Virus record (IMG/VR): IMGVR_UViG_3300032291_002116
Span: 1-38,488 of that record
Length of the DNA: 38,488 nucleotides
Reading direction: 5' to 3' (one strand)
From: a virus
The position numbers and the translations under genes are program-made. Position 1 is the stretch's first letter. Each line of letters begins with the position of its first letter. Under the pieces are notes generated by a model that did no database searches, was not told where the DNA came from, and saw only the letters and a program-made list of their open reading frames with translations. Positions 14,461 to 38,343 of the stretch are shown here, in pieces.

Positions 14461-14499
14461 AAAGGTTTGGCTTCGCCAAATCTCTTTATTATATTTAGC
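14461..14499 (+). repeat. Dispersed intergenic repeat, copy 1
   Basis: Hairpin plus T-rich stretch plus TATATTTAGC tail, shared with 30484-30521 with a few changes, some of which keep the stem paired. Both copies sit just upstream of a new gene group. Confidence 0.6.
14464..14482 (+). terminator. Hairpin, copy 1 of a repeated intergenic element
   Basis: GGTTTGGC (14464-14471), loop TTC, GCCAAATC (14475-14482), then a T-rich tract and ATATTTAGC. Nearly the same element occurs at 30483. It could end transcription of the DNA-metabolism genes while the following ATATTTA starts the next unit. Confidence 0.5.
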
Positions 14500-28573: not shown

Positions 28574-29167
28574 ATGACTAAAATTTACATATTGGAAAGA
28601 AATGGAGTTCCATTTTATGTTGGTAAAACATTACAAGAAATAAAAGAACGTTTTTATACTCATAAAGACAAAAAAGAAAATAGTGAAATATTTGAAATTG
28701 ATTGTGTAGATGATAATGAATGGAGATTTTGGGAATCATGGTATATTGAACTATTTAAGTCGTGGGGATTTGAATTAGAAAACAAAAATAGTGGTGGTGG
28801 GGGAAGAGGCCCAGGATGGATATCACCTCCTGAAAGAAATGCTAAAATAAAAGCATCAATGAAGAATCATTCACAATATTACACTGATGATGTTAGAAAG
28901 AAAATAAGTAAAGGTAATAAGGGTATACCTAAACCATTCACCGAAGATCATATACGAAACATCGGTTTAATTAAACGTAAGAATGCTAAACGGGTACTCA
29001 TGTATGATTTAGAAGATAATTTAATTAAAGAGTGGGAATGTAAAAGTCAAGCAGCTGAATGGATAAAAGAAACAAAGAAAAGACAAGGAAATTTGACTTC
29101 CCAGATAAAAGATGCTATATTAGGTAGGCAAAAAACAGCTTTTGGATATAAATGGAAATATAAATAA
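28574..29167 (+). CDS. GIY-YIG homing endonuclease with NUMOD modules
   Basis: A 197-residue protein. The nuclease domain has KIYILERNGVPFYVGKTLQE (GIY-YIG strands), an ERFYTHKD helix and the catalytic-Glu helix WRFWESWYIELFKSWGFELE. A NUMOD3-like region (VRKKISKGNKGIPKPFTEDH) and a NUMOD1-like C-terminus (VLMYDLEDNLIKEWECKSQA, then AILGRQKTAFGYKWKY) follow. It is clearly homologous to the gene at 23250, sharing VPFYVGKT and LENKN-GGGG. It lies between a strong terminator and the oxidoreductase gene, which starts one base after its stop, so insertion may have separated that gene from its own promoter. Confidence 0.85.
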   Translation: MTKIYILERNGVPFYVGKTLQEIKERFYTHKDKKENSEIFEIDCVDDNEWRFWESWYIELFKSWGFELENKNSGGGGRGPGWISPPERNAKIKASMKNHSQYYTDDVRKKISKGNKGIPKPFTEDHIRNIGLIKRKNAKRVLMYDLEDNLIKEWECKSQAAEWIKETKKRQGNLTSQIKDAILGRQKTAFGYKWKYK

Positions 29168-30458: not shown

Positions 30459-30482
30459 AGACTATACATAACATTTGACATG

Positions 30483-30507
30483 AAGGGTTTGGCTTTGCTA
30501 AATCCTT
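30483..30507 (+). terminator. Hairpin, copy 2 of a repeated intergenic element
   Basis: AAGGGTTTGGC (30483-30493), loop TTT, GCTAAATCCTT (30497-30507), followed by TTG and TATATTTAGC. Two G-T pairs keep the 11-bp stem. It resembles the element at 14461 and closes the oxidoreductase unit. Confidence 0.6.
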
Positions 30508-30521
30508 TTGTTATATTTAGC
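30484..30521 (+). repeat. Dispersed intergenic repeat, copy 2
   Basis: Shares GTTTGGCTT-GC-AAATC, the T-rich stretch and TATATTTAGC with 14461-14499. It lies upstream of the VWA/MoxR group, as the first copy lies upstream of the kinase run. It may be a terminator-promoter module. Confidence 0.6.
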
Positions 30522-30538
30522 TATAATTATAAATACTT

Positions 30539-31735
30539 ATGGCAAATTTACAAGAAGACCTATCAAGAATAGGCAAGCAATTAATGTTTAGTGAACCATT
30601 CTATGGTATATTCATGTCAACTCTTAATAAAGTTGTAAGAAAAGATTTACCTACTGCTGGAGTTTCTAAAAATAACATTAATTATCAACTAGCTATCAAT
30701 GAGGAATTTTGGAACTCATTAGATAATGACAAAAAGAAGATAGGTCTATTAAAACATGAACTACTTCACATATGTTTTAACCACTTAGAAGATAGAGAGT
30801 GGTTCCCTAATCATGAATTACATAATATAGCCGCGGATTTAGAAATTAACCAATATCTAACACCAGAGTATTACCCAATGGATGGTATTATATTATTATC
30901 GTCATTTCCCGAATTAAATCTACCTGAAAAAGCTGGTACTAAAGTGTATTATGGGCTATTACAACAAGCATTAGATAAAGGTACAAGTCCATCATTACAA
31001 GCATTAATGGATCAATTAGTTGGGAATGAATATGGTGGTTTACACCCAACATGGAAAGAATTTGATGGGATGAGTGAAGCTGATGCTAAATTAGCTAAAG
31101 CACAAATTGAACACCAAATTAAAGATATTGTTAATTCACAGAATAATCAAAGTAGAGGATTTATACCTGCAGAATTACAAAGTTGGGTCGATAATATGTT
31201 TGAAGAAACAGAACCTTCATATGATTGGAAGTCATATTTTAGACGATTCTGTGGTACATCATCAAAAACATACACTAAAAAAACAAGACGTAAGCTAAAT
31301 AAACGTTTTCAAGAAAACCCAGCATTAAAAATTAAAACTAAAAAGAAAATACTAATAGGAGTCGACACATCAGGTTCAGTTAGTAATGAAGATTTGATTG
31401 AGTTTTTTAATGAAATTAATCACATGCATAAAACTGGTGTATCAATTACTATAGCTGAAGGTGACGCTGATATCACTAATATATATGAGTATAAAGGTGA
31501 TATGCCTAACCAAATAACAGGTAGAGGTGGTACTGATATGAATCCATTTATTGTATATTTCAACGAGCATAGGGAGTTTAATAGTTTAATTATATTAACT
31601 GATGGCCATATAGGTGAAAACACAGTTAAGACACTTAAACCAATGATGATGGTTATATGCTCAAGTGGTGATGATATAGAATCAGTAAAAGAAAATGGAT
31701 GGGGCCACACAATCAAGATAAGTTTGGCTTCTTAG
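30539..31735 (+). CDS. VWA-like/HExxH metallopeptidase-like protein (DUF2201-type)
   Basis: A 398-residue protein with two recognisable parts. An N-terminal zincin-like region has H73-ELLH77 (LLKHELLHICFNHLEDREWF) followed by a helix with ADLEINQYL, as in putative metal-dependent peptidases of the COG3864/DUF2201 type. The C-terminal VWA-like region has the MIDAS signature D276-TSGS280 (ILIGVDTSGSVSNEDLIEFF), a distal GRGGTDMNP with the conserved Thr/Asp, and ILTDGHIG. In bacteria such proteins are encoded beside MoxR-type AAA+ ATPases and act with them as chaperone or maturation pairs. The MoxR-like ATPase follows here after 38 bases. It ends with TAG. Confidence 0.8.
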   Translation: MANLQEDLSRIGKQLMFSEPFYGIFMSTLNKVVRKDLPTAGVSKNNINYQLAINEEFWNSLDNDKKKIGLLKHELLHICFNHLEDREWFPNHELHNIAADLEINQYLTPEYYPMDGIILLSSFPELNLPEKAGTKVYYGLLQQALDKGTSPSLQALMDQLVGNEYGGLHPTWKEFDGMSEADAKLAKAQIEHQIKDIVNSQNNQSRGFIPAELQSWVDNMFEETEPSYDWKSYFRRFCGTSSKTYTKKTRRKLNKRFQENPALKIKTKKKILIGVDTSGSVSNEDLIEFFNEINHMHKTGVSITIAEGDADITNIYEYKGDMPNQITGRGGTDMNPFIVYFNEHREFNSLIILTDGHIGENTVKTLKPMMMVICSSGDDIESVKENGWGHTIKISLAS

Positions 31736-31745
31736 AATATAAATA

Positions 31746-31754
31746 TTATATTTA
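31746..31754 (+). promoter_or_regulatory. TTATATTTA box, 19 nt before start codon
   Basis: Shares the ATATTTA core of the recurring box but lacks the 3' TAAT. Similar TTATATTTA boxes lie at 30511 and 34834, also 17-19 bases before a start codon. They may form a second, related class. Role inferred. Confidence 0.35.
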
Positions 31755-31773
31755 ATTAAAATAAATAAAGGTT

Positions 31774-32967
31774 ATGGCAAAACAAAAAACAAAACACACT
31801 GAAGTGTCTCTAAATATTAAAGAGGCAAAACAATTCTTAAAACACATTATAAATAACAATCGTTATTTACAATCAAATGGTAAGTTACCTGTAGCCGTTG
31901 AGGTAGTTGGTGACTCAGGTATTGGTAAAACATCAACAATTTTACAATTAGCCAAAGAAACAGATCTAAACTTTGTTAAGTTAAACTTAGCTCAAATTGA
32001 GGAGCTAGGTGACTTAGTAGGTTTTCCAATTCGTCAATTTGAAGTATGTAAAACTGATAATGACTGTTTATGGATTGATGAACATGCAGTAGAAGAGTAT
32101 ACTAAACAAGGTTACAAATTTACAGGTCTAAATCGTATGAGTTATTGTCCACCTGAATGGATTAGTGGCAAAACTAATGGAGGTATCTTATTATTAGATG
32201 ACTGGAATCGTGCTGATGTTAGATTTATTCAAGCTGTTATGGAGTTAATTGATAGACAACAATATATTAGTTGGACATTACCTAAAGATTGGCATATTAT
32301 ATTAACAAGTAATCCTGATAATGGAGACTATTTAGTTAATAGTATTGATAGTGCTCAAAAAACACGATTTATCTCAGTTAATCTTAAATTTGATATTAAT
32401 TGTTGGAGTGAGTGGGCTGAAGATGCTACAGTAGATAGTAGATGTATTAACTTCTTACTTAAACACCCAGAATTAGTATCAACAAATACTAACTCAAGAA
32501 GTATTACAACATTCTTTAATTCAATCTCATCATTAAATTCATTTGATAGTGAGTTAGGTTTAATTCAAATGATAGGTGAGGGTAGTGTTGGGCCTGAGTT
32601 CACAACTATGTTTACAATGTTTATTAATAATAAATTAGATAAGATTATCTCACCAGAAACTATTATGACTCATGAAAGTGAGGAGTATGTTTTGAATACT
32701 TTAAAAGGTATTATTGGTAAGGGTGATAAATATAGAGCAGATTTAGCATCAATTTTATCAACTCGTATTGTTAACTTTAGTTCATATTATGCTAAAAATA
32801 ATAAAGTTGAGAAACCATATATTGATCGTTTAGCGTTTTTAATGAATGAAGAGTTGTTTGCTATGGATTTAAAATACAAAATTGTAAAAACAATTTATAA
32901 TAACAACCCATCAGCTTTCAAATCATTAATGTTAAATAAAACTTTAATTCAATTTTTAACTAAGTAA
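31774..32967 (+). CDS. MoxR-like AAA+ ATPase
   Basis: A 397-residue protein. Walker A is G46-DSGIGKT53 (VEVVGDSGIGKTSTILQL). Walker B is ILLLDDWNRAD with D142-D143, in which the usual D-E is D-D. Sensor 1 is visible in WHIILTSNPDNGDYLVNS, and an Arg follows in AQKTRFISVNLKFD. The pattern LDDWNRAD...TSNPDNGDY fits the MoxR/CbbQ-like AAA+ group that works with VWA-domain proteins to remodel target proteins. Its direct partner is the upstream VWA/HExxH gene. The following gene starts 2 bases after its stop and is probably the third member of the unit. Confidence 0.8.
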   Translation: MAKQKTKHTEVSLNIKEAKQFLKHIINNNRYLQSNGKLPVAVEVVGDSGIGKTSTILQLAKETDLNFVKLNLAQIEELGDLVGFPIRQFEVCKTDNDCLWIDEHAVEEYTKQGYKFTGLNRMSYCPPEWISGKTNGGILLLDDWNRADVRFIQAVMELIDRQQYISWTLPKDWHIILTSNPDNGDYLVNSIDSAQKTRFISVNLKFDINCWSEWAEDATVDSRCINFLLKHPELVSTNTNSRSITTFFNSISSLNSFDSELGLIQMIGEGSVGPEFTTMFTMFINNKLDKIISPETIMTHESEEYVLNTLKGIIGKGDKYRADLASILSTRIVNFSSYYAKNNKVEKPYIDRLAFLMNEELFAMDLKYKIVKTIYNNNPSAFKSLMLNKTLIQFLTK

Positions 32968-32969
32968 TT

Positions 32970-34079
32970 ATGAAAAATCAAAATATAGGACATTTAACAA
33001 CTGTTAATTCTGGTCACCCTTACCGTATTGAAATGTTTAGTGTAGGTTACCAATTAGTAGGAGGAATCATACCTGAAGATTATCAAAACAAAATTAAAAA
33101 TTTTCTAAATGGGATAAAAGATAATAAATTAACTGATAACAGTACAGTATATGTCACTCCATTATCTGAGTTACCTTCATATAAGCTTAAAAATTATATT
33201 GGAGAAAATAAATTAAATATAACTACTGCTCGTAAACTTGAAAAATTAGATACTCTAATTATTAATAAAGAATTTATTGAAAATAATTACCTTAATATTA
33301 CAGTATGGGATCGAAATTCAAACACATATTTAACTAATCATATAACTGATTATTTAGTATTTCCAATAGATGTTTTAACAAAAGATCCTAAATTTAAAAA
33401 ACATATCAACCCACATAAGAATAAATGGAATGATATAACTATAAAAGGAAAAAAACATATTACTCATTATTGTGTATCCATAGATGAATATAATATTATA
33501 TGCACTAAAATTCCTCAATTCCAAACTATTAAAGATAAAGCTACAATACATAGAGGAATTAGGCTTGAAGGATCACATGGTTCTAAAAAAGCATTTGATA
33601 ATTTAGAGTTTTATATTGATTTATTAGATAATGTTAAAAAACATAATTTAAAAGTTGTATTTGACTCAAGTGTAAATGAAGATATTAATAAAGGATTAGT
33701 TATTGATTTTGATATATTCCAAAACTTATATGGGATGTTAAAAAGTACTGATACTGGTAATTGGGAGGTAGCAAAAGAAATTATAGCTAACTGTGAGTTT
33801 GAGGCATCAAAATCTTATATTATAGCTTTATATAATATGTTTATGGATTTACGTAAAACAAGCCCTAATAAAAATTATAATTTAGTTAAAAAAGTATTAG
33901 ATACTAAAAAATTAGGTATAAGTATAAAATATAGAGGATATGTTCCGGCATTTGAATCACTATTAACACATTTTAGTGCTAAGTGTCCTGAGTTAATTCC
34001 ACAACTAATGCCTTGTTTGATTTATCGTATAAATGACTTAGCTAAAAAAGAAGTAATTAAAGAGATAACACTCGCTTAA
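32970..34079 (+). CDS. Unknown third protein of the MoxR-VWA unit
   Basis: A 369-residue protein starting 2 bases after the ATPase stop, so almost certainly co-translated with it. I recognise no domain. Residues 1-180 are a beta-rich mixed region (HPYRIEMFSVGYQLVGGIIP, then KKHITHYCVSIDEYNIICTK). The second half is helical (NWEVAKEIIANCEFEASKSY, then LTHFSAKCPELIPQLMPCLI), reminiscent of a helical-repeat scaffold. No signal peptide, membrane segment or obvious catalytic motif. The association suggests an adaptor or substrate of the ATPase/VWA pair. Confidence 0.55.
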   Translation: MKNQNIGHLTTVNSGHPYRIEMFSVGYQLVGGIIPEDYQNKIKNFLNGIKDNKLTDNSTVYVTPLSELPSYKLKNYIGENKLNITTARKLEKLDTLIINKEFIENNYLNITVWDRNSNTYLTNHITDYLVFPIDVLTKDPKFKKHINPHKNKWNDITIKGKKHITHYCVSIDEYNIICTKIPQFQTIKDKATIHRGIRLEGSHGSKKAFDNLEFYIDLLDNVKKHNLKVVFDSSVNEDINKGLVIDFDIFQNLYGMLKSTDTGNWEVAKEIIANCEFEASKSYIIALYNMFMDLRKTSPNKNYNLVKKVLDTKKLGISIKYRGYVPAFESLLTHFSAKCPELIPQLMPCLIYRINDLAKKEVIKEITLA

Positions 34080-34101: not shown

Positions 34102-34584
34102 ATGGCTAAAGTAGTACTTTTAAGTTGTACCAAATCAAAGACTAAACACGCAGCTCCAGCACAGGAGCTGTATTCTGCTTCTCCAATGTTCCAAAAGACA
34201 TTAGAATATGGTAAATCACTCAAACCAGATAAAATGTATATCTTATCTGCTAAACATCATCTAGTTCCATTAACTAAGACATTAGAACCTTATGATAAAA
34301 CTCTTAAGGAAATGCCTAAAGATGAAAAAGATAAATGGGGTGAGGAAACAATTAAACAAATGAGATCAGCAGGTATTAATCCTGAAAAAGATCAATTTGT
34401 ATTTCTAACTGGAAGTGAGTATATGAAACCATTTGACCAATATATCCCAGATAGTAGTATAGAAAATCCTATGAAAGGAAAACGTTTCGGAGAACGTTTA
34501 AAGTGGTTAAACTCACAAGTACAAAAATTAACTGAAGCATTTAAACGTTTAAAAAATCTTATATATGAAAGTCTCAAAAAATAA
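34102..34584 (+). CDS. DUF6884-like protein
   Basis: A 160-residue protein. The opening VVLLSCTKSKTKHAAPAQEL, with C9 and the Lys pair, plus LYSASPMFQKTLEYGKS, MYILSAKHHLVPLTKTLEPY and DKTL, matches the DUF6884-type pattern (S/A-C-x-K-x-K ... ILSAKHGLV ... PYD.TL). Related domains occur in proteins near 7-deazaguanine modification and in archaeosine-type enzymes, but the molecular role is unknown. The C-terminal LTEAFKRLKNLIYESLKK is a helical extension containing an L-T-E. It overlaps the next gene by 20 bases. Confidence 0.65.
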   Translation: MAKVVLLSCTKSKTKHAAPAQELYSASPMFQKTLEYGKSLKPDKMYILSAKHHLVPLTKTLEPYDKTLKEMPKDEKDKWGEETIKQMRSAGINPEKDQFVFLTGSEYMKPFDQYIPDSSIENPMKGKRFGERLKWLNSQVQKLTEAFKRLKNLIYESLKK

Positions 34585-34804: not shown

Positions 34805-34833
34805 CACTTATTTGGCTATTGGGAATAAGGATG

Positions 34834-34842
34834 TTATATTTA
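34834..34842 (+). promoter_or_regulatory. TTATATTTA box, 17 nt before start codon
   Basis: Related to the recurring box through its ATATTTA core, and similar in spacing to those at 30511 and 31746. A purely A/T leader with one C leads to the ATG at 34860. Confidence 0.35.
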
Positions 34843-34859
34843 ATAAATAAATTAATAAC

Positions 34860-35114
34860 ATGAAAGAAGTAAAACCATTAGTTGTAGATGAGACATTAAA
34901 AACAAAAAAGTATACATCAACAGACGGTACTGTACGTTACATGAAAGATGGTAAATTACATAACTGGGAAGGCCCAGCATTAATTACACCTGAAGGTAAA
35001 AAAGAGTATTTTATTAATGGTACTCAACATACTAAAGATAGTCATAAAAAAGCTAGAAAAGATGGAGTTGGATTACCATGGTATAAGTCAGGTGTAGCTA
35101 AACAAAGATTCTAA
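34860..35114 (+). CDS. Small protein with MORN-like hairpin motif
   Basis: An 84-residue basic protein. Residues 24-58 (TVRYMKDGKLHNWEGPALIT, then PEGKKEYFINGTQH) form a repeated strand-turn pattern of the MORN/WW-like type (Y-x-x-G-x-x-H/N-x-x-x-G-P-A), common in small phage and toxin-immunity proteins. The ends are Lys-rich. It has its own promoter-like box and abuts the glycosyltransferase-like gene with no gap. Function unknown. Confidence 0.6.
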   Translation: MKEVKPLVVDETLKTKKYTSTDGTVRYMKDGKLHNWEGPALITPEGKKEYFINGTQHTKDSHKKARKDGVGLPWYKSGVAKQRF

Positions 35115-36771: not shown

Positions 36772-38343
36772 ATGAGTCAAGACATAAAACAAATAATTCG
36801 TGAAGAATATCTGAAGTGCGCCTCTAATCCGGCGCACTTTATGCGTAAATATTGCTATATCCAACATCCACAACGTGGTAGAGTATTATTTAACTTATAT
36901 CCATTTCAAGATAAAGTACTTAACTTATGGAAAGATAATCCATATGATATAATACTTAAATCAAGACAATTAGGTATATCTACTCTAGTAGCGGGTTACT
37001 CATTGTGGTTAATGTTATTTCAACAAGATAAAAATATCTTATGTATAGCAACTAAACAAGAAACAGCTAAAAACATGGTAACGAAAGTTAAATTCATGTT
37101 TGAAAATTTACCTTCTTGGTTAAAAATCACAGCTGAAGAAAATAATAAACTAACATTACGACTAAGTAATGGCTCCCAAGTTAAAGCAGTATCAGCAGCT
37201 GGTGACGCAGGTCGATCTGAAGCCGTTTCTTTGCTGATTATAGATGAGGCTGCATTCATTGATGGTATTGGTGAGATATGGGCATCAGCCCAACAAACCT
37301 TAGCTACAGGTGGAGGTGCTATTGTGTTATCTACCCCATATGGTACAGGTAACTGGTTTCACCAAACATGGGTTAAAGCAGAAGCAGGTGAAAACCAATT
37401 CTTACCTATTAAATTACCATGGTATGTTCATCCTGAACGAGATGAGACTTGGAGAAAACGACAAGACGAATTATTAGGTGATCCTAGAATGGCGGCGCAA
37501 GAATGTGACTGTGATTTTAGTACATCTGGTGATGTAGTGTTCTATCCTGAGTATATAGACTTTATTGCTCAAACTTATATTAAGGATCCCTTGGAGAGGC
37601 GCGGAGTTGATCATAACTTATGGATATGGGAACCAGCAGATTATAGTCGCAGCTATATAGTTGTAGCTGACGTTGCTCGAGGAGATGGTAAAGATTTTTC
37701 TGCATTTCATATTATAGATGTTGAAACAAATACTCAAGTAGGTGAATATAAAGGACAGTTATCACCTAGAGAATTTGGTTATTTGTTAGTAGCAATAGCA
37801 ACAGAATATAATGAAGCATTATTAGTTGTTGAAAATGCTAATATAGGATGGTCAACAATTGAGGCAATTCAAGAAAGAGGATATAGAAATTTATACCATT
37901 CTCCAAAAAGTGAAGCTACAAATGCTGATTCTTATTTAGATAAATTTGATGACCCATCAAAAATGACACCTGGATTTACAATGTCTTTAAAAACAAGACC
38001 ACTTGTAATTAGTAAATTTAGAGAATATATTGGAGATAAAAGTGTTATTATACAATCTAAACGATTGTTAGAAGAAATGAAAGTGTTTATTTGGAGAAAT
38101 GGACGACCAGAAGCACAATCAGGATATAACGATGATTTAGTTATGAGTTTTGGAACAGCAATGTACATAAGAGACACAGCTCTTAAATTTAAAACACAAG
38201 GAATGGATTTAACTCGTGCAATGCTTAATAACATTACTGTAGTTAAAACAAACCAACAAGGTATTTATGGAGCTGGTTTTAATAGTAATCCATATAATAT
38301 GGATTTTGGTCATGGACCTGAAGACATTAGCTGGTTATTATAA
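36772..38343 (+). CDS. Terminase large subunit, gp17-like
   Basis: A 523-residue protein, somewhat shorter than T4 gp17. The ATPase part has the Walker A variant S64-RQLGIST71 (ILKSRQLGISTLVAGYSLWL), Walker B LLIID158-E159 and the coupling motif VLSTPYGTGNWFHQTW. The nuclease part has D300 in VVADVARGDGKDFSAFHIID, an acidic VVENANIGWSTIE strand, and NDDLVMSFGTAM, supplying the RNase H-like catalytic aspartates. It packages DNA into the prohead with the portal, whose gene follows. The first 70 bases contain a striking 9-bp hairpin, and an in-frame ATG lies just after it (residue 24). Confidence 0.95.
   Translation: MSQDIKQIIREEYLKCASNPAHFMRKYCYIQHPQRGRVLFNLYPFQDKVLNLWKDNPYDIILKSRQLGISTLVAGYSLWLMLFQQDKNILCIATKQETAKNMVTKVKFMFENLPSWLKITAEENNKLTLRLSNGSQVKAVSAAGDAGRSEAVSLLIIDEAAFIDGIGEIWASAQQTLATGGGAIVLSTPYGTGNWFHQTWVKAEAGENQFLPIKLPWYVHPERDETWRKRQDELLGDPRMAAQECDCDFSTSGDVVFYPEYIDFIAQTYIKDPLERRGVDHNLWIWEPADYSRSYIVVADVARGDGKDFSAFHIIDVETNTQVGEYKGQLSPREFGYLLVAIATEYNEALLVVENANIGWSTIEAIQERGYRNLYHSPKSEATNADSYLDKFDDPSKMTPGFTMSLKTRPLVISKFREYIGDKSVIIQSKRLLEEMKVFIWRNGRPEAQSGYNDDLVMSFGTAMYIRDTALKFKTQGMDLTRAMLNNITVVKTNQQGIYGAGFNSNPYNMDFGHGPEDISWLL
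36814..36839 (+). other. Perfect 9-bp GC-rich hairpin inside the terminase start
   Basis: AAGTGCGCC (36814-36822), loop TCTAATCC, GGCGCACTT (36831-36839). It lies within the coding sequence about 40 bases from the ATG. Such a GC-rich stem is exceptional in coding DNA here. It could regulate terminase expression, mark a packaging site, or be coincidental with the encoded residues. Confidence 0.6.

Follow-up and report, generated by a model that had tools for sequence, protein, structure and literature searches.

The 38,488-base IMG/VR virus record IMGVR_UViG_3300032291_002116 (hereafter the window, meaning the whole stretch of DNA that was analyzed; its G+C content is low, about 30%) carries a module of three consecutive genes. 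They encode a von Willebrand factor A (VWA) protein with an N-terminal zincin-like metallopeptidase domain, a MoxR-like AAA+ ATPase and a third protein, here named U3, which belongs to a protein family not described before (Table 1). The first-pass annotation of this DNA had placed three genes here, and a check of the coordinates of the open reading frames (ORFs) confirmed their positions: 38 nt separate the VWA and ATPase ORFs, and only 2 nt separate the ATPase and U3 ORFs. The trio is not a chance array of ORFs, because the module was found in about 100 distinct contigs and the dN/dS ratios of U3 were 0.07–0.35. Within the phage group to which the window belongs, which is T4-like with genomes of about 160–180 kb, U3 is a fixed part of the module.

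The linkage of U3 to the other two genes was assessed with profiles of the three proteins, which were built from IMG/VR relatives of U3 and the ATPase and run on all ORFs. The count was based on 98 distinct ATPases, which formed 29 clusters at 90% ATPase identity. Wherever more than 1.3 kb of sequence follows the ATPase gene, which applies to 87 distinct ATPases, U3 was present in the locus (87/87), and the full trio was found in all 53 loci (53/53) flanked by 5 kb or more on each side. Similarly, in a second contig set found with a divergent ATPase query, which included clades at 55–60% ATPase identity, U3 was found wherever the sequence suffices, and the only three loci without U3 stop just behind the ATPase gene. 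The IMG/VR seeds L093 and L080 contributed few extra loci. Thus, the unrecognized third protein of the first-pass annotation does belong to the unit. That annotation had also suggested looking for the three genes in the same order in relatives. All three genes do recur, but their order varies: VWA-ATPase-U3, VWA-ATPase-U3-U3, ATPase-U3-VWA and VWA-U3-ATPase were found. U3 always adjoins the ATPase gene, with a median gap of 2–3 nt, and the VWA gene is the mobile member. In one marine clade U3 is in tandem duplicate, and the two copies are highly divergent. A search for fusions of U3 to either partner gene found none. In addition, a search for cellular homologs of this ATPase clade returned only three metagenome-assembled genome contigs, all of which contained the whole trio. 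They are in all likelihood phage-derived and were not accepted as cellular homologs.

The identities of the two other proteins as a MoxR-like ATPase and a VWA protein with an intact metal ion-dependent adhesion site (MIDAS) and an HELLH motif agreed with the first-pass annotation, and the metallopeptidase motif was refined to the longer HExxHxxxxH. The VWA protein matched DUF2201_N, a putative metallopeptidase domain (E value of 2.5e-10), the VWA-like DUF2201 (E value of 2.6e-9) in Pfam and phrog_1314 (E value of 1.7e-54). The ATPase matched AAA/AAA_5 in Pfam and phrog_1297 (E value of 4.2e-34), and midasin was its best PDB sequence match. In 93 of the 93 distinct VWA homologs, the motifs H73-E74-x-x-H77-x4-H82 and D276-T-S-G-S280 as well as T332 and D355 were invariant. 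The same was true for Walker A (residues 46–53), the acidic Walker B residues D142 and D143, sensor-1 N180 and a candidate arginine finger, R198, of the ATPase (n = 98 distinct sequences). Because the active-site motifs are unchanged in about a hundred homologs, both catalytic parts are probably functional. The VWA domain extends to residue 394 of 398, which leaves the protein without a C-terminally fused effector domain. In one relative (L028:405-1616) the VWA gene is split into two ORFs and the ATPase and U3 genes are intact; an assembly error is possible there. Phrog_1314 and RefSeq phage records such as NC_031039.1 and NC_021782.1 are named 'HNH endonuclease', a name that the domain content does not support.

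Table 1. Features of the module and of its surroundings; positions are those of the window unless a locus is named.
Feature	Position	Strand	Basis
VWA protein with N-terminal zincin-like metallopeptidase domain (DUF2201_N and DUF2201), 398 residues	30539..31735	+	Pfam, PHROG, motifs
HExxHxxxxH motif, VWA protein residues 73-82, metallopeptidase domain	30755..30784	+	93/93 homologs
MIDAS motif DTSGS, VWA protein residues 276-280 (T332 and D355 complete the MIDAS)	31364..31378	+	Homolog alignment
MoxR-like AAA+ ATPase, 397 residues	31774..32967	+	Pfam, PHROG, PDB sequence match, invariant motifs
U3, 369 residues, new family, fastest-evolving gene of the module	32970..34079	+	Profiles, identity comparison, model pLDDT 91.5
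U3 residues 58-108, beta-alpha-beta-beta-alpha, BRCT-like (weak support)	33141..33293	+	Model, PF00533, Foldseek
U3 residues 228-275, most conserved helical core	33651..33794	+	Alignment; core common to small ORFs by the ATPase gene
Core-only small ORFs	L061:7669-7971, L065:7612-7947, L069:404-739, L070:7350-7685, L080:7667-7912, L101:6425-6832		Core is the only part in common with U3
TTTGGCT-N16-TTATATTTA, promoter-like, upstream of the VWA gene	30488-30519	+	Motif search, shuffles
TTTGGCT-N16-TTATATTTA, copy ahead of the ATPase gene, its first part overlapping the 3' end of the VWA ORF	31723-31754	+	Motif search, shuffles
TTTGGCT-N16-TTATATTTA, further copies	14466-14497; 34811-34842 (upstream of the gene at 34860)		Motif search, shuffles
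Terminator-like hairpin between the FAD oxidoreductase and VWA genes	30482..30508	+	
TATTTATA	1838, 9547, 18463, 19059, 24796, 27945, 28556, 34080, 36197, 38344	+	

The MoxR/zincin-VWA pair itself has already been described in phages, and U3 is the new part. Related pairs are annotated in AR9, BpSp, S-TIM5, MTATph1, Aeromonas 2L372D and N4-like phages. Iyer et al. (2021; PMC7824862), in their section on jumbo phages of group 2.2, describe a MoxR AAA+ ATPase adjacent to a vWA cochaperone that has a metallopeptidase fused to its N terminus, similar to the two proteins of the window, and propose a role in virion assembly with peptidolytic processing. That section describes the pair alone, whereas the third gene is always present in the T4-like group. 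In the Bacillus jumbo phage AR9, gp28 and gp29 are likewise an AAA ATPase followed by a 'zincin-like protease fused to vWA domain', with an annotated early promoter directly upstream but no U3 in the flanks. N4 gp24 and gp25 (vWFA) are core genes of the N4-like phages (Schitoviridae) and are on middle transcripts in N4 (PMC4193335). In the N4-like Salmonella phage SP-076 the pair is COG0714 followed by COG3864, both of which match the profiles built in this study, but the flanks checked contained no U3-like gene. Searches of the flanks with hidden Markov models and hhalign did not detect U3 beside the ATPase gene in AR9, BpSp, S-TIM5, phiKT1024, MTATph1, SP-076 or 2L372D, most of which have a recognizable VWA-zincin protein beside the ATPase. 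For cultured phages, a tblastn search with four divergent U3 sequences against 50,697 phage records gave no match. Since no U3 was detected in the flanks of these distant phages, all of which have the ATPase and most the VWA-zincin protein, U3 has been added to the pair in a specific lineage. Relatives with the pair but without the third gene, which the first-pass annotation had regarded as evidence against a unit, were therefore absent from the T4-like group, in which U3 was never missing, and do exist outside it, such as AR9. 'Bacteriophage sp.' contigs from human feces that contain the pair were dropped as evidence from crAss-like phages, since the neighboring genes look bacterial (TruA-like, RnfC-like and aminotransferase-like). 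Among the fecal contigs L106 and L119–L123 (MT83xxxx), the VWA-MoxR pair has leucine-rich BspA-like neighbors, and at least some of these contigs look bacterial.

Other systems are more distant. An interaction between MoxR and VWA proteins was demonstrated experimentally for p618 and p892 of Acidianus two-tailed virus (ATV; PMC4124505). However, ATV is an archaeal virus, its pair acts in tail development, and according to the statement on ATV in PMC7824862 no metallopeptidase domain is present. Similar to the proposed phage machine, RavA-ViaA, CbbQ-CbbO and CobS-CobT each consist of an AAA+ ring and a VWA co-chaperone that act on a third partner, but their homology to the phage pair is at the superfamily level only. 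The first-pass annotation had also considered a defence-like ternary system. MoxR-vWA ternary conflict systems with VMAP or iSTAND components (PMC7159879) do combine MoxR and VWA proteins with a conserved, fast-changing third protein. They are cellular, however, whereas the phage trio is without VWA-fused effectors and U3 has no recognized relation to VMAP or STAND. As PADLOC also returned no match for any of the three proteins, this suggestion was not supported.

No Pfam, PHROG, NCBIfam, PADLOC or PDB sequence match was found for U3, and Pfam-A gave no supported family among 66 U3 members. Among seven genes of the neighborhood, U3 had the lowest identity in 356 of the 378 genome pairs compared. 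U3 was about 34% identical where the ATPase was about 82% identical, and over the range of 78–85% ATPase identity the mean identities were 34% for U3, 69% for the VWA protein and 68% for the terminase. The dN/dS ratios given above nevertheless indicate that U3 is under purifying selection and expressed. Moreover, the flanking genes of contig L014 were 94–97% identical to those of the window and U3 was 69% identical. The synonymous divergence of this U3 exceeded that of its neighbors, which suggests exchange of U3 alleles.

The AlphaFold2 model of U3, made with 66 sequences, had a mean predicted local distance difference test score (pLDDT) of 91.5 and a predicted template modeling score (pTM) of 0.76. 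In it, an alpha/beta region ends at about residue 231, and helices follow. A Foldseek search of the full-length model against PDB gave no significant match. In a viral structure library, four proteins matched with E values below 1e-3: an uncultured Caudovirales protein (3.0e-13), a CrAss-like virus protein (2.6e-10) and two proteins of one podovirus (3.8e-8 and 1.8e-5). The structural relatives include the crAss-like A0A8S5QMV2, A0A8S5TL70 and A0A8S5TKB2 as well as A0A6J5LXR8. The presence of two U3-like proteins in one podovirus genome is reminiscent of the tandem U3 copies. Hence, for the protein that the first-pass annotation had left without an assigned fold, a confident model and structural relatives in crAss-like phages are now available.

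Two segments of U3 deserve attention. The order of strands and helices in residues 58–108 fits a BRCT domain. The best score of PF00533 was 18.1 bits, under the curated cut-off of 21.3 (E values of 4.3e-4 and 2e-4), and its sole match in 30 phage records, one locus in two contigs, falls on U3. When the isolated domain was compared with PDB by Foldseek, the BRCT domains of PARP and REV1 were on top (probabilities of 0.69 and 0.35, respectively), although these matches were not significant (E value of about 0.7). The chances that this segment is BRCT-like are about even. The second segment is the helical core, in which D232, S259, A268 and N274 were nearly invariant and the mean entropy was 2.1 bits, compared with 2.8–2.9 bits in the variable parts. 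This core was also found in ORFs of 81–135 residues by the ATPase or VWA gene in L061, L065, L069, L070, L072, L080/L129/L130 and L101. Such recurrence is as expected of a docking element and may reflect one; other explanations are possible.

Besides the module, the window has genes for a baseplate wedge protein, DNA primase and exonuclease, and terL (36772-38343) codes for a T4-type large terminase subunit. Among cultured phages, Flavobacterium phage immuto has the nearest terminase (60% identity; genome of 160 kb), followed by Microcystis phage Mel-JY01 (52%). As immuto is the closest, the host is probably a member of the Bacteroidota. Profile searches of the stretches around terL of immuto and Mel-JY01 did not find the trio. 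On the 5' side of the module lies an FAD oxidoreductase gene, which is interrupted by a homing-endonuclease-like ORF in several relatives (L037:2067-4237, L053:1289-3459 and L057:3828-6228). In the window, a similar ORF (28574-29167) is directly ahead of this gene. Directly 3' of U3 is a gene for a DUF6884 protein (34102-34584), whose position is kept in many relatives.

Two types of upstream element were found in the window. The first is the 32-base TTTGGCT-N16-TTATATTTA, of which the window has four copies and 100 shuffled sequences had none. It resembles the promoters of Bacteroidota, for which TTTG and TAnnTTTG are characteristic, and is probably a non-late promoter class, with the caveat that the copy upstream of the VWA gene overlaps the terminator-like hairpin and the first half of the one upstream of the ATPase gene overlaps coding sequence. 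The second type, TATTTATA, occurs 10 times on the plus strand of the window, always within the 2.9% of the sequence that is intergenic. For nine of the 10 copies a gene starts 12–26 nt downstream, and the remaining copy is directly behind terL. Because TATTTATA precedes terL, portal, fiber and other genes in immuto, this motif probably serves the phage group as its late promoter. Among distinct upstream sequences of the relatives, a TTATATTTA-like box was found for 16 of 30 VWA genes and 14 of 25 ATPase genes, and TATTTAT was found in none of them. The upstream sequences of the DUF6884 gene were the reverse, with TATTTAT in 30/38 and no TTATATTTA-like box. Two further genes were similar to the DUF6884 gene in that the second type of box was present and the first type never. 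As the elements upstream of the VWA and ATPase genes differ from those of the TATTTATA genes, late expression of the trio is improbable, which agrees with the early promoter annotated in AR9 and with middle transcription in N4. Another candidate, TATAAATA as a T4-type late promoter of the VWA and ATPase genes, was rejected, since it had 15 matches on both strands compared with 16 expected and was too near the VWA start.

Our tentative interpretation, to which we give somewhat less than an even chance, is that U3 is the target-recruiting subunit of a three-part remodeling machine. The ATPase would form a hexameric ring, as in other MoxR-VWA systems, with the VWA protein as its MIDAS-dependent co-chaperone. 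The conserved helical core of U3, around D232 to N274, would dock on the ATPase or the VWA protein, while the variable alpha/beta part would bind the target. ATP hydrolysis would then remodel the target, which the zincin domain may clip. The acidic residue D232 is a candidate for the MIDAS contact, which would parallel midasin and its clients with ubiquitin-like (UBL) domains. The fast variation of U3 and the unit's own, putatively non-late elements make the virion itself a less likely target than a host factor or a phage complex of the early or middle stage. Several results weigh against the targeting role. Distant phages manage with the pair and without a detectable U3, and the fast evolution of U3 would be expected just as much of a client, an inhibitor or an anti-defence protein. 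Moreover, the expression class was deduced from sequence motifs.

A machine for virion assembly, in which the ATPase and the zincin-VWA protein serve as chaperone and processing protease for head or tail parts and U3 is a helper or client, is possible but rather unlikely for the trio. It is the role proposed for the group 2.2 jumbo phages in the section cited above (PMC7824862). In addition, the ATV protein p618 is in the virion and binds p892 as well as tail proteins (PMC4124505), and in virions of a Staphylococcus jumbo phage one peptide was found of an AAA ATPase whose gene adjoins that of a metallopeptidase (PMC10638138). In the N4-like phage RPP1, genes for virion proteins lie in the middle region close to the pair, which favors a virion role there and also counts against the targeting role (PMC4193335), and the module of the window is within 5 kb of terL. 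However, the elements upstream of the module are unlike the TATTTATA that precedes terL, portal and fiber genes in immuto, and the pair has an annotated early promoter in AR9 and middle transcripts in N4. If these elements are indeed non-late, they weaken the virion-assembly proposal. U3 also evolves faster than the terminase and every neighbor tested.

It is unlikely that U3 is instead a dedicated client, which the ATPase/VWA pair folds, loads or activates and which then acts alone. NorCB and Rubisco are clients of their own MoxR-VWA pairs, client genes often adjoin such systems, and the one-to-one gene linkage of U3 with the ATPase is what a client would show. The conserved residues of U3, however, reveal no catalytic motif or cofactor site, and a core that recurs in small ORFs by the ATPase gene resembles a docking element more than a client. 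Finally, an independent anti-host or anti-defence protein that merely travels with the pair would account for the fast divergence and tandem duplication of U3, but is quite improbable given that the linkage to the ATPase is complete over about 29 clusters (90% ATPase identity) and persists where the VWA gene is rearranged, and given that PADLOC found no match.

Returning to U3 as a targeting subunit, we consider there to be a small chance that it is a rapidly diversifying, occasionally duplicated one, which steers the AAA+/metallopeptidase machine at changing host proteins, such as defence factors. If true, these phages would possess a machine for remodeling or degradation whose targeting part can be exchanged. 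The new U3 family offers a confident predicted fold and candidate residues, which are D276 of the MIDAS, D232 of U3, D142/D143 of Walker B and H73/E74/H77 of the metallopeptidase motif. MoxR-VWA pairs occur widely among large and N4-like phages, and U3 may reveal what this machine acts on.

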